The translations under genes and the position numbers were made by a program. Below are positions 2,601 to 52,952 of a DNA stretch of 64,000 nt, one piece after another. This stretch comes from Desulfobulbaceae bacterium (lineage in GTDB: Bacteria; Desulfobacterota; Desulfobulbia; Desulfobulbales; Desulfobulbaceae): NCBI GenBank assembly GCA_011391865.1, contig JAABPV010000033.1, forward strand, positions 1 through 64,000. The letters are read 5' to 3'. Below the pieces are notes generated by a model. It ran no database searches. It worked only from the letters and a program-made list of their open reading frames with translations, and had not been told where the DNA came from. Position 1 is the stretch's first letter, and every line of letters starts with the position of its first letter.

Positions 2601-4811
2601 ATGAACGCCATTGCAAAAGAAACCAATGCCGCCGCGCCGGCGGCCAGCCTTCCTGACCAGCAGGAGGAGAAGGGCGGCAAGACCCTGCCGGAGACCATCT
2701 GCGATCTGCTGGCCGAGAAAAAAACACGCAAGATTGACGAGATGCTGGAGCAGCTCGCAGCGGGCCTGCGGATGGAGAATCCCCGGATGCGGCTGAAGGC
2801 GGCCTGCTATCTCACCGACACATTGGAGCTGCTCATCGCCCATCAGGAATGGCAGCGGATGGACAAGCTCTTGCCTGCGGCGGAGATGGCCTTGGCGGCT
2901 GCTCTGGAGAACGAGGTTGGAGTCTGGCAGCTCATCACCGCGCTGTCCGCCTTTGCCGCCTATCAGATTGAGATGGGCAAGTACGCCTCCGCCCGCCGCG
3001 CCCTGCTCATTTTCTCCGGTCAGGACGCGCTGCCGCCTTCAGCCGAGGCGGTGCGCGAGCGGGTCGATCAGCTCATTAGCGACCTCGCCACCCGCCCCCT
3101 GCTGGAGCTGCTGCTGGTTGAATACCTTTTCGACAAAGAACGGTCGCATGATGCTGGACGGCTTTTCGGAGTTTTCGGCAGGGCGGCAGCGGAATATCTG
3201 CTGGAGCCGCAAAATCTGAAGCAATTCGAGGACAAAGCCGATGTCCTGCTCAAGCTCTTCGGCGAAATCGGTCGGCCTGCGGAAAAAAGCCTCTGCCAGC
3301 TCCTGCGGCAGACCGGCGACTGGTACATGATCCGCAACATCATCCGCCTACTGGGCGAAAAAGGCAGCTCGGCCAGTTTCGCGGATGTCACTGTGTTTTT
3401 GGACCATGAGGACATCCGGGTCAAGGGCGAGGTGCTGCGCGCCGCCAGCCGGATTGAGGTGCCGGGCAAAAAAGATTTTTTTCTCCGGGCACTCAGGTCC
3501 GTGCCCCGGCAGCTCACCGAGCTGGTGGTGACGCTGCTCGGCGACATCCCTGACAGCAGCTTGGTCGCACCGCTGGCTGACCTCCTTGACGATGCCGCTC
3601 TGATCAAAAACAAAGCCGGACTGAACCTGCAAATCGCCATCTGTCTGGCCTTGGGCAAAATAGGTTCGGTCAAGGCCGTGCCGACGCTGAAAAAAGTCAT
3701 TGCCTTGACCAATGCTGAACCGGCACTGATCAAGGCGGCAGAGCAGGCCATCCACATCATCAGCCATGGCGGCAAGCACAAACGTCAGGCTGTTCCGTCG
3801 GATGTGCCGATACAGAACAACCCATTTGCCGCCCGCGAGGCAGGCATCATCCGGGCCGCCATGTCCGGCGAGCGGGCTGTGGCTGCCCGTCAGCTCTTCG
3901 AGCTGATCACCGAATGCGTGCAGGAGGGCGATCTGCTCAACGCCGAACGGCTGCGCGAGCGTTTCAGCGAGATCAACCCCAACGCCATCGCCGAGATCAT
4001 CCAGTCCGCTGAACTGATTGAGGAGGCGAAAAGTGGCGTGCAGGTGCGCGGCTATCTGGACATCTGGTCCAACCTTCTCCATGAGCTGAGTTCGGAGGAG
4101 TTCAGTGCTATCTATCATGAGCTGGAGCACCGCACCTTTGAGCCGGAGGAAGCTCTGGTCCGCCAAGGCGAGCGCAACGACGAGCTGTTCTTCATCAATC
4201 ACGGCACAGTGCGGGTTTTCTACAAAAAAAATGACCGCAAGATCTACATCAAAAGTCTGAGCGACGGCGATTTGGCAGGCGAAAATTTCTTCAGCAGCTC
4301 GGTCTGGACCGTGAGCATGAGTGCTGTGACCGAAAGCCGGATTTCCGTCCTCAAGCGCGCCTGCTTCGAGCGTTGGAAAGAGGCGTATCCCGGCCTAGAG
4401 GAAAAACTGCGGAATTTTTACAACGGCACCAACAACATCCGTGACCTGCTCCAGCGCAAGGGCCTCAACCGCCGCAATTACGACCGCTACACTCTTTCCC
4501 GCAAGGTGGATTTTCAGGTCATGGACACGCCGGGCAAGCCGATCGGCCAGAAATTCAGAGGTAAGCTGTCCGATGTGTCGCGGGGCGGCTTGTCGATGAT
4601 TTTCCGCATGGCCCAGCAGAAGCACATCCGGGTGCTTCTGGGCCGCAACATGCGGATCACCATTCCGGTGGCAGGCAGCCCGTCAGAACTGGATGTGCAG
4701 GGGCAAGTTCTCTCTATTCAGCCTGCGGACGAAGAGATGGGCGAGTACAAAATCAGCTTAGTTTTTGACGAGGAGCTGGAGCAGGAAGAGTTGCAGATGG
4801 TGCTTGGTTAG
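2601..4811 (+). CDS. HEAT-like repeat, cyclic-nucleotide-binding and PilZ domain protein
   Basis: The 736-residue soluble protein starts with a Lys/Glu-rich segment. A long helical region (about 60-400) contains HEAT-like repeats, such as VTVFLDHEDIRVKGEVLRAA. A Crp/cAMP-type nucleotide-binding domain follows (about 500-590: ALVRQGERNDELFFINHG and GDLAGENFF). The C-terminus (about 620-730) is PilZ-like, with RNYDR matching the RxxxR motif and DVSRGG matching the D/NxSxxG c-di-GMP motif. The combination suggests a regulator that responds to c-di-GMP and possibly to a cyclic mononucleotide, with HEAT repeats docking a partner. No catalytic or DNA-binding domain is seen, so the output is unknown. 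Its 3' end overlaps tilS tail to tail by 59 bases. Confidence 0.8.
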   Translation: MNAIAKETNAAAPAASLPDQQEEKGGKTLPETICDLLAEKKTRKIDEMLEQLAAGLRMENPRMRLKAACYLTDTLELLIAHQEWQRMDKLLPAAEMALAAALENEVGVWQLITALSAFAAYQIEMGKYASARRALLIFSGQDALPPSAEAVRERVDQLISDLATRPLLELLLVEYLFDKERSHDAGRLFGVFGRAAAEYLLEPQNLKQFEDKADVLLKLFGEIGRPAEKSLCQLLRQTGDWYMIRNIIRLLGEKGSSASFADVTVFLDHEDIRVKGEVLRAASRIEVPGKKDFFLRALRSVPRQLTELVVTLLGDIPDSSLVAPLADLLDDAALIKNKAGLNLQIAICLALGKIGSVKAVPTLKKVIALTNAEPALIKAAEQAIHIISHGGKHKRQAVPSDVPIQNNPFAAREAGIIRAAMSGERAVAARQLFELITECVQEGDLLNAERLRERFSEINPNAIAEIIQSAELIEEAKSGVQVRGYLDIWSNLLHELSSEEFSAIYHELEHRTFEPEEALVRQGERNDELFFINHGTVRVFYKKNDRKIYIKSLSDGDLAGENFFSSSVWTVSMSAVTESRISVLKRACFERWKEAYPGLEEKLRNFYNGTNNIRDLLQRKGLNRRNYDRYTLSRKVDFQVMDTPGKPIGQKFRGKLSDVSRGGLSMIFRMAQQKHIRVLLGRNMRITIPVAGSPSELDVQGQVLSIQPADEEMGEYKISLVFDEELEQEELQMVLG

Positions 4812-8468: not shown

Positions 8469-11405
8469 TCAGCCCTGACGGGCCACCTCGGTGAAGGTCA
8501 GCACCACGCCGTTCAGCCTGCTCCCTTTGGCGTTCAAGGTGTTGGCGTTGACGCAGAGAAAATATTCCTGCCCGCCGCCGCCTTTCAAACGGATGACCAG
8601 CGGTTCGCCTTTCTCCTTCAGCGTGCTGACAGCGCGGATGAAATCCTGACCAGAAGGAAACTGGCCGCCGTCCAAGTCAGAGAAGCCGAACTGCGCCGAG
8701 CTGAGCGGCAGCTCCAGCAACGTTTTGGCTGGTCGGCTGAAAAGCACCGCAGCCATTTCATTGGCAAAGCGGATGCGGCCCTCGCTGGTGGCCATCATTG
8801 TCGGGGCGGGACTGGCCTCCAAAATCTGCTCCAGAATTTCGCTCGATTGGCGCAGAGTCTCCTCCGCTCGTTTCTGGCCGCTGACATCGACAATGGAGAT
8901 GACCATGCCGCTGACTTCGTTGGTCTCGTCGATGTAGGGGATGAACTGCACCAGCGACCAAGTGTCCGAGCCGTGCCGCACCACCTTCTCCGCTTTCTGT
9001 CTAGTCATGAGGAGATTGTTGAACTCCGCCTCAATGTCGCCGAGCAGCGGCGCGGCCATGTCGCTGATCCGACGGCCTAAATCCTGCTCCATCAGATTCA
9101 TGACCCGGCAGACAGAGGGCGTGTATTTGCGGATGCGCAGCTGCCGGTCAACGAAAATAAAGCCGATCTCGGTGCTGCAAAAAAGGTTGTCAATGTCATT
9201 GTACAGCTCGGTCAGCTCCATGATCTTGCTCTGATACTCGGTGTTGACCGCGCTCAATTCCTCGTTGACCGAGTTCAGCTCCTCGTTGGTGCTTTGCAGC
9301 TCCTCGTTTGAGGCCAGCAGCTCCTCATTGGCTGCCTGCAGCTCCTCGTTCGAGGTTTGCAGCTCCTCGTTGGCCGCTTGGAGGCTTTCGCGTGTGAACT
9401 GAATTTCCCGCTCTAAATCCAGCACATGCCGCCGGATCTCGTCGTCAGGAATCCTGCCGCCTCCGTCTTGCGGGCCATCGCCCTTCAGCGGGCCGGGCAT
9501 CCGCTCCAAGGCGATTATAACGCTGTCCGGCGGAAAAATTTCGTCGTCGTTCAGCCGCGCAGCCCGCAGCAGGAAGCGTCCGTCATCGTTCTCGCTGACC
9601 CGGATGCCGTCATAGACCACCTCGCGGCCCTCCTCCTGACGGCAGGCCCGCATGGCGGCGGTGACCGGCAGCAGCAGCGGCGGCGTGAGCATCTTGCTGA
9701 GACTGAGGCTCATCCGGCCCGGCTGCGGCTGAAGAAGCAGATCTGTTCTGCCGAAGGTCTCCAGTATCTCACCCTCGCCGCTGACGATCAGGCAGGCGGC
9801 GGAGAGCCTGCCGATGATCTTCTGATAATACGCCTCCTGACTTTCCAACTTGCGCACCAAATCAAACTGCTGCCGGGCCTTCTCGGTGTCCGGGCGGGGC
9901 TGGTAGCTGTTTTTTCCTGCCGGGGCCGGGCGGGCGGGAACGCGCAGCTTCCGGCTCTGCGGCAAGGTGCCGCAGCCGACATGGCGGTAGATTTTGCTCT
10001 GTTTGTCCACGGCGATGAAGCTGTCGCTCAGTTCCATGACGGTCTCGCTGCCACCGAGAAAGAGAAAGCCGCCGTCTTTGAGGGCGAAGTGGAACAGACC
10101 CAGCACTTCTTTCTGCAAAGGCGGCAGCAAATAAATAAGCAGATTGCGGCAGACCACCAAGTCAAGCCGGGTGAAGGGCGGGTCATGCAGCAGGTTCTGC
10201 TGGGCGAAGATGACCAGCTCGCGAATGTGCCGCCGGACAATAAAGCCGTTCTCGGCCCGGCTAAAATAGCGTTCCAGCAGCTCCTGGGGCAGGTCGGCGG
10301 CGATGCCGTCCGGGTAGAAGCCTCTGGCCGCCTTTTCCACCGCATGCTGGTCAAGGTCGGTGGCGAAGACTTTGATCTTGCATCTTTTTCCGGCATGGCG
10401 GCGCACCATGTGGTCGTGCAGGAGCATGGCCACGGTGTAGGCTTCCTCGCCGGTAGAGCAGCCTGCGTCCCAGACCCGGATTTCATCCTGCTCTGCCGCG
10501 TTTTCAAAAATTTGGGGAATGATTATGTCGCGGAGCTGCTCAAACTCTTTGCGGTCGCGGAAGAATCGGGTCACGCCGATGAGCAGGTCGCGGTAGAGCA
10601 GGCTCACCTCGCCAGGCCGCACACGGAGGAACTCGGTGTAGTCGTGCAGCGAGGGACAGCGGACAACCGCCATCCGTCGGTTGATCCGCCGGATCACCGT
10701 GATTGGCTTGTAGAGGGTGAAATCGACATTGGTCTGGGCGCGGAGCAAGGCGAGAATCCTAGTCAGGTCCGCCTCCTCGCCGGAGGGCAGCTGGTCTGCC
10801 TCGCGGCGGATGCGCGGATGGCGGAGGTATTCGCAGATCCGCTCCGGCATCTCCGCCGCCGGGCAGACGCAGTCGGCCATGCCGGTGGCGATGGCGTTGA
10901 CCGGCATGCCGTCAAATTTCGCGTCGGACGGCTCCTGCACCAAAATCATGCCGCCTGCCTTCCTGATGGCGGGCAGGCCCCGGCTGCCGTCGCTGCCAGT
11001 GCCGGAGAGCACCACGCCAACTGCCTTTTCCTGCCGGTCTTCAGCCAGACTGCGGAAAAAGTGGTCAATGGGGAGATGCAGCCCCTGCCGCTCGGTCAGG
11101 ACATCAAGCAGCAGCCTGCCGTTGAAAAGGCTCATGTGGGTCTGGGGCGGCTGGATGTGAATGCGGTTCGGCTCCGCAGCCATGCCGTGCTCGGCCTGAA
11201 CCACCGGCATGGCTGTGTGCGCGGCAAGCAGCTCGCCCATCATGCTCCGGCAGTTGGGCGAAAGGTGCTGGACAACCAAGAAAATCAGGCCGCTGTCCGC
11301 AGGCATTTTCCTGAAAAAACTGATCAGCGCCTCCAGCCCGCCCGCTGATGCGCCAAGCCCCACCGCGCAGGCATCCGCGCCGTTTTTTTTGGATAAACTT
11401 TTCAT
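8469..11405 (-). CDS. CheB-CheR fusion with coiled coil and two PAS domains
   Basis: This 978-residue protein joins a CheB-type methylesterase (about 12-190; GLGASAGG with Ser20, QHLS and GTGSDGSRG supplying the Ser-His-Asp triad) to a CheR-type methyltransferase (about 215-480; SAM-binding [14 protein letters not shown]). A long heptad-like helix (about 640-720) contains repeats of the type LQxxNEEL. Two PAS domains (about 725-840 and 850-975) end the protein. There is no CheB receiver and no kinase domain. The family is usually called CheB/CheR fusion two-component protein. The chemoreceptor or other methylation target is not in this window. It lies 11 bases after the hybrid kinase stop and 4 bases before the PAS kinase. 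Confidence 0.9.
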
Positions 11406-17848: not shown

Positions 17849-17873
17849 ATCACCGCACCGCAGACCGGCTGGA

Positions 17874-18006
17874 TCGTGATACCTATCATGCCGCTGTCGT
17901 TATACGTATAACGACTCTGCCATGATACGTATAACGACGCTGCCGTGATACGTATGATGATTTTGCCGTGATACCTATCACGGCAGATTCGGGATACGTA
18001 TCCTTT
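17874..18006. repeat. Palindromic array A: six 18-bp dyads with exact 23-bp period
   Basis: Six dyad units are centred at 17882.5, 17905.5, 17928.5, 17951.5, 17974.5 and 17997.5, exactly 23 bases apart. Each 18-bp unit is variable around CGTGATAC/GTATCACG; unit 2 extends to the perfect palindrome GTCGTTATACGTATAACGAC. Five-base linkers read CGCTG, CTCTG, CGCTG, TTTTG and CAGAT. The array lies in the 225-base gap between the MOSC and PLD-like genes. The last unit, GGATACGTATCC, is followed by five T's and could act as a weak terminator. Confidence 0.9.
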
Positions 18007-18073
18007 TTGGGGAGCATGGAGGGACGCGGCGGCGACGTTTACTTTTGCATAAAACCAAGAATAGATATTGAAA

Positions 18074-21012: not shown

Positions 21013-21122
21013 GATCATAACACTTATGTCCCTCCGACTATAGTGCTTATGTCAGTCGGACATAAGTGCTTATGTCGCTCCGACCTAAGCGTTATAGTCC
21101 GCCCGACATACGTGCTATGGCA
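21013..21122. repeat. Palindromic array B: five 18-bp dyads with exact 23-bp period
   Basis: Units are centred at 21021.5, 21044.5, 21067.5, 21090.5 and 21113.5. The central unit is GACATAAGTGCTTATGTC; the others are variants of it. Linkers are CCTCC, AGTCG, GCTCC and CGCCC. The array fills most of the 154-base gap between thiE and thiC. The geometry equals that of array A, but the palindrome sequence is unrelated. No TPP riboswitch signature is visible in the gap. Confidence 0.9.
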
Positions 21123-27027: not shown

Positions 27028-27098
27028 AAGGTACTCCCGTATCTAAGACAAAGATACTGGGGTATCCAAGAGGAAGGTACTCCGGTATCTTCCTCTTG
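27028..27098. repeat. Palindromic array C: three dyads with 23-bp period, last one a strong hairpin
   Basis: Core units GGTACTCCCGTATC (27030-27043), GATACTGGGGTATC (27053-27066) and GGTACTCCGGTATC (27076-27089) are centred at 27036.5, 27059.5 and 27082.5, again 23 bases apart. A degenerate fourth copy may lie at about 27006-27020. The last unit extends to a 13-bp stem (27068-27080 with 27085-27097, one G-T pair) closed by a TCCG loop, so it may terminate the kinase transcript. The array lies between the kinase and receiver genes. Confidence 0.85.
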
Positions 27099-52797: not shown

Positions 52798-52915
52798 GTT
52801 TTTCCGCCCGGTTCCTGAAAGCGTATTTTTCTTGGCAGCGCAGACAGTTGTCCATCCAGACGCATCCCTGCGCCTGCCGCCAGCACCAGCCCGCTGCGCT
52901 GTTCAACCCTTGGCA

Positions 52916-52952
52916 GTGACAATTTTTGTCACCGAGTGACAAAAATTGTCAC
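52916..52952. promoter_or_regulatory. Double dyad, candidate PilR enhancer between pilA and pilS
   Basis: GTGACAATTTTTGTCAC (52916-52932) and GTGACAAAAATTGTCAC (52936-52952) are exact reverse complements separated by CGA. Each is also a dyad with GTGACAA/TTGTCAC arms. TTGGCA flanks both sides as a direct repeat. The centre is about 160 bases upstream of the pilA start, a usual distance for NtrC-family enhancers, and about 80 bases before pilS. The remainder of the 52705-53015 gap shows no other feature. Confidence 0.75.

Follow-up and report, generated by a model that had tools for sequence, protein, structure and literature searches.

Tandem palindromic arrays with a 23-bp pitch in cable bacteria as predicted binding sites of HU-like DUF4469 proteins

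In a 64,000-nucleotide stretch of the genome of a Desulfobulbaceae bacterium (contig JAABPV010000033.1; hereinafter, the window), the array of six palindromes between a MOSC-domain gene and a PLD-like gene (array A, positions 17873–18007, plus strand) is likely to be the binding array of one subfamily of HU-like proteins containing a DUF4469 domain (HU-DUF4469), that is, a DNA address predicted from sequence and composed of homodimer sites at equal pitch. At promoters, such arrays probably serve autoregulation, and in other places they probably have a regulatory or architectural role. The arrays and the HU-DUF4469 genes are co-located, co-distributed and paired by family. The source genome is that of a freshwater cable bacterium, Candidatus Electronema; the ThiC protein encoded in the window shows 99% identity to its counterparts in two freshwater cable bacteria, Candidatus Electronema aureum GS and Desulfobulbus sp. 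F5, the latter listed as Ca. Electronema nielsenii (PMC10580974).

The units of array A are imperfect 20-bp palindromes separated by 3-bp gaps, with TCRTGATAC and GTATCAYGA as the consensus halves of the family and GTGATACGTATCAC as the form of the family A unit at the 23-bp pitch. The six units are ATCGTGATACCTATCATGCC (17873–17892, centered at 17882.5), GTCGTTATACGTATAACGAC (17896–17915, center 17905.5), GCCATGATACGTATAACGAC (17919–17938, center 17928.5), GCCGTGATACGTATGATGAT (17942–17961, center 17951.5), GCCGTGATACCTATCACGGC (17965–17984, center 17974.5) and TTCGGGATACGTATCCTTTT (17988–18007, center 17997.5), the last one being followed by a T tract. The dyads contain the core ATACSTAT (17877–17888, 17900–17911, 17923–17934, 17946–17957, 17969–17980 and 17992–18003), and the distance between the centers of neighboring dyads is 23.0 bp throughout, with zero drift. 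Tandem Repeats Finder (TRF) reports a repeat with a period of 23 and 0% indels at 17875–17982, and a run of ATACSTAT cores at 23-bp steps, six in the window, never exceeds one in 200 shuffled windows. The exact 23-bp spacing of the six dyads, noticed in the initial annotation, is thus borne out by the coordinates, by TRF and by the shuffled windows, and its other two observations, that one unit (17896–17915) is a perfect 20-bp palindrome and that a T5 tract comes after the last dyad, GGATACGTATCC, hold as well. The 5′ neighbor of the array is the MOSC-domain gene (PF03473; 17408–17848, plus strand), and the 3′ neighbor is the PLD-like gene (PF13091; 18068–18829, plus strand, with an uncertain start codon).

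Arrays A, B and C, all located in the window, have unrelated sequences and a common period of 23: array B (family CTTATGTCNNTCCGACATAAG, 21023–21116) lies between thiE and thiC, and array C belongs to family GATACTCCGGTATC (27028–27090). A two-unit palindromic repeat with a period of 20 (AGTGACAATTTTTGTCACCG) is found at 52915–52952. A period-21 tandem repeat at 9243–9374 of the window lies within an open reading frame and most likely represents coding repeats. Array densities come from sampled stretches of genomes, in which genes were called with a codon model for this analysis: TRF detects 14 period-23 and 9 period-21 arrays in 464 kb of the window genome and 8 period-23 arrays in 500 kb of GS, but none with period 23 in 400 kb drawn from three further members of the family (160 kb of it from Electrothrix) or in 1.07 Mb of other genomes. 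The units of the arrays are mostly palindromic, and their sequences split into many unrelated half-site families, which are scattered through the genomes and amplified to a different extent in different species. Among the relatives, arrays of this kind have so far turned up in cable bacteria alone, and the open-access literature yielded no description of them in these bacteria. Neither the array nor the HU protein was matched in plasmids, a search of IMG/VR with the HU protein yielded nothing, and viral contigs with three A-like cores turned out to contain AT-rich repeats that were judged unrelated.

The connection between the arrays and the HU-DUF4469 genes is apparent from their locations. 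A period-23 array called by TRF is present within 330 nt upstream of 27 of the 41 HU-DUF4469 genes, whereas ordinary genes have one in 20 of 634 cases (Fisher p = 1.7e-25); the HU-DUF4469 genes of Electrothrix reach 13 of 14. When the A-type genes are added to the set, arrays are found upstream of 29 of the 43 genes and downstream of none (0/43), and palindromic units are visible by eye at several genes without a TRF call. A TTGACA-type promoter is detected within the 130 nt that precede the gene in 27 of these 43 cases, compared with one in shuffled sequence. Family A arrays, specifically, are located upstream of the A-clade HU-DUF4469 genes of GS (G001), G002, G004 and an Electrothrix genome (G068). 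The A-type HU gene of G004 (L142, approximately 3400–3500) contains an in-frame stop after 16 codons and looks broken, with the array intact.

The HU-like set includes 44 members, with matches at E 0.1 to PF18291 in 28 (best, 6.6e-10), to PF14848 in 27 and to PF00216 in 23; the N-terminal DNA-binding domain, of HU/IHF type, is recognized by the HU-HIG and HU-DNA_bdg profiles, and a C-terminal Ig-like DUF4469 domain is present in 42 of the 44. When compared with the PDB, the HU-DUF4469 profile matches 4fmr, an uncharacterized protein (1.2e-7), and has weaker similarity, at the level of weak matches, to chains of HU and IHF; the structure model obtained from a single sequence was poor (pLDDT 32). 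The search for DUF4469 gives 15 matches in the window genome. Among the 74 Desulfobulbaceae genomes, DUF4469 is represented in 11, from 2 of the 14 genera, both of these cable bacteria, and among 395 genomes sampled across the phylum, no others were found to have it. Array family A, present in 8 of the 74 genomes, is limited to the same two genera.

Beyond co-location, the array families follow the HU-DUF4469 protein tree. Among the protein pairs with less than 55% identity, 0 of 783 share an array, compared with 61% of the pairs at 75–85% identity and 86% of those above 85%, and protein similarity correlates with array similarity (Mantel test, r = 0.42, p = 0.0002); for orthologs, this joint similarity is in part the common descent of the whole region. 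Array A scores 30/32 against the array of the G004 HU gene, families 7, 9, 163, 167 and L013 score 29–31/32 against HU-linked arrays, and array C scores 25/32 against the array upstream of an HU gene from its own genome (L274), the best column-shuffled score being 24/32. Array A, array C, families 5, 6, 7, 8, 9, 163 and 167, and the L013:6509 family exceed this control, the result is borderline for families 2 and 154, and by that measure family 4 falls below it; family 4 units are nonetheless seen upstream of two HU genes (L312 and L276). Among the 74 genomes, arrays of family 7 are confined to G000, G001 and G004, and the matching HU clade is found in G000 and G001. An array family is tied to one protein subfamily in this way, though not in every case: partners among the HU genes were not found for array B and its family, families 3 and 179, the 22-bp family and all 21-bp arrays.

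For family A itself, the HU partner is encoded in Electrothrix and in three further genomes of Electronema, one of which has the early stop, and the sister HU clade (L270, L275 and L281) lacks an array. The paralogs of the window genome do not include an A-clade HU gene, the closest one being L281, with 59% identity and without an array; the array A of this genome may thus be an orphan site, or else, the A-clade gene may reside in the missing 5% of the genome. The neighbors of A-type arrays are thiH and, by inspection, leuB, aroE, fusA and trpS, with no common function. Because these neighbors share no theme, no regulon is apparent, and an architectural role of the arrays is as likely as a regulon.

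The symmetric, degenerate half-sites of the arrays are typical of dimeric regulators, so the arrays might be operators of ordinary transcription factors, with the HU-DUF4469 genes being merely members of the regulon. Such an arrangement is very improbable: it leaves unexplained both the existence of a distinct array family for each HU subfamily and the common distribution of arrays and HU-DUF4469. Sites for the tungstate/molybdate regulator TunR/ModE, considered on account of the adjacent MOSC gene, were rejected because this gene is not a stable neighbor.

Binding by an HU-DUF4469 protein presupposes that the palindromes function as DNA half-sites rather than as RNA hairpins. Pairing between the left and right arms was assessed by comparing the arms of one unit with the arms of different units from the same array: in 186 units, 1036 pairs were observed compared with 1037.4 expected (p = 0.56). 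The halves of family A share one position-specific pattern, TCRTGATAC, with nearly equal sets of tolerated letters. In the absence of left–right covariation, symmetric DNA half-sites are favored over selected hairpins; the units look like symmetric dimer-binding half-sites, and homogenization among units could contribute to this appearance. It is unlikely, then, that the arrays work in RNA as intergenic tandem hairpins that end or stabilize transcripts, with T5 as part of a terminator. Three lines of evidence speak for such a function, namely, the near confinement of the arrays to gaps between genes of the same strand (24 of 24, compared with 215 of 291 gaps, in a two-genome sample), the folding of the array A transcript (z = −6.5) and the retention of the T run past the last unit in GS and Electrothrix. 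However, pairing within units is no better than that between randomly paired units, GU and AC mismatches are not clearly different in number (55:38 in the 23-bp arrays and 12:19 in the 21-bp arrays), a terminator scan, which looks for a G+C-rich stem with a T run, finds no site at 17874–18012, there are no matches in Rfam, and the arrays of the HU genes stand upstream of the promoter. Furthermore, outside the two-genome sample, some arrays occupy divergent or convergent gaps, which weakens the notion that they are found solely in co-directional ones.

The history of the array A locus can be traced through its relatives. In GS and F5, array A is located 3′ of thiH, not of the MOSC gene, and consists of five units, compared with six in the window genome, with the 23-bp register maintained. 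In Electrothrix G021 (genus g14, nearest to Electrothrix gigas; the thiH region is identical to L035), an A-type array of approximately seven units starts directly past the thiH stop and ends with a T run; the end of the array with the T run after thiH is the same in GS and similar in G021. Because an A-type array follows thiH in Electrothrix as it does in GS, family A and its place after thiH probably predate the split between Electronema and Electrothrix. Arrays change through gain and loss of whole units, so that the two options offered at the outset for the regular spacing, constraint and unit duplication, both apply: whole 23-bp units vary, while pitch and dyads are retained, even across genera. 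The strain comparison that the initial annotation called for shows whole-unit differences among the relatives, and no case of random divergence with loss of the dyads was encountered. The suggestion that array A separates a core MOSC gene from an acquired PLD-like gene looks reversed: the PLD-like gene is kept downstream of the array in F5/G002 (DNA identity is 88% in L028 and L149), and the MOSC gene has zero matches in four genus-mates. Judging by these comparisons, the neighbor that changed is the MOSC gene, an apparent newcomer at a position where the relatives have thiH. In the window genome, thiH is on another contig, and the array after it belongs to a different family; this thiH gene (L140:1908-3200) includes a stretch of Ns with a repeated segment on either side, which probably arose during assembly.

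Other loci are more variable. Array B is the same in GS and F5 but absent in Electronema KV and Electrothrix. One orthologous gap, with flanks 94–95% identical, contains unrelated 23-bp arrays in the window genome (L019:15946-16070) and in GS (L179:4554-4664), and a second one contains arrays of 21 bp and 23 bp. In GS, a weakly matching Y1-type transposase gene is found together with REP-like palindromes between array A and thiE (L029:7129-7743).

The presence and absence of array B between species, the dispersal and species-specific amplification of the families, and the proximity of a Y1 transposase to array A in GS would all fit mobile or selfish repeats, either REP/BIME-like or solo ends of an HU-carrying element, spread by a transposase, with the HU genes as cargo. 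Nevertheless, this origin appears rather improbable, given that Y1_Tnp (PF01797) has a single weak match in the window genome and six in GS although the arrays are most abundant in the window genome, that the HU genes are flanked by arrays on the upstream side only, that the units are without the asymmetric features typical of REPs, and that array A has kept its place after thiH in two genera. REP/BIME elements mobilized by RAYT, in particular, were discarded because the transposase is too rare and is not in step with repeat abundance.

Several other repeats resemble or adjoin the arrays. Period-21 arrays of the GATTTCAATTGAAATCG family, with approximately 9–13 units, occur in the window genome (L008:1785-2023, L018:13827-14074 and L316–L320); a search for an HU-DUF4469 partner of these arrays found none, and perhaps, they represent a parallel system with another protein. 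In Electrothrix G029, an A-type array of approximately eight units directly adjoins a CRISPR-like array (L251), and in the window genome, a CRISPR-like array is likewise the neighbor of an HU paralog that has two palindromic units (L254). Array A itself consists of 20-bp palindromes with 3-bp gaps rather than of repeats with variable, repeat-length spacers as in CRISPR.

If the arrays are indeed bound by the HU-DUF4469 proteins, one dimer would cover each palindrome of approximately 20 bp, and adjacent dimers would touch at the 23-bp pitch, perhaps via the Ig-like DUF4469 part. Each subfamily would bind its own palindromes, side by side. An array at the gene of the protein itself would provide for autoregulation, and through dispersed arrays, such as array A, the same protein would regulate neighboring genes or organize the chromosome.

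HU-like proteins usually show little sequence preference in DNA binding, and we know of no DNA targets for the expanded HU-HIG families. Burroughs and colleagues reportedly described, in 2017, many HU-HIG paralogs per genome in Bacteroidetes. The cable bacterial proteins resemble the HU-HIG/DUF4469 proteins (Pfam PF18291 and PF14734) of the HU/IHF superfamily in their domain matches and in the number of paralogs per genome, but the literature found contains no description of tandem palindromic arrays paired with such proteins, whereas here the subfamilies have arrays of their own. In enterobacteria, IHF sites and REP/BIME clusters are dispersed intergenic palindromic clusters, some of which are bound by nucleoid proteins; the cable bacterial arrays are similarly dispersed but differ in the strict 23-bp pitch, symmetric units, the multitude of families and the link to protein genes. 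The autoregulated operator arrays of dimeric repressors likewise include symmetric sites by the promoter of the regulator itself; in the present case, however, the fold is, by profile match, HU and not that of a classical regulator, there are up to approximately 10 units, and the families are dispersed in the genome.

In a broader interpretation, for which the chances seem about even, cable bacteria possess a private set of HU-like proteins that have diverged into numerous DNA specificities, and each protein reads a palindromic array of its own, of 23-bp pitch, both at the promoter of its gene and at sites scattered over the chromosome, a multi-channel addressing by nucleoid proteins that, within the family, is tied to the two genera of cable bacteria. 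Such a paired set of proteins and DNA addresses apparently has not been described before. To our knowledge, the chromosome organization of cable bacteria has been little studied. The subfamilies with matching arrays amount to a direct list of candidate protein–site pairs in these filamentous, electrically conducting bacteria, may reveal how a nucleoid-protein fold gains new specificities, and give a first handle on the role of the DUF4469 proteins.
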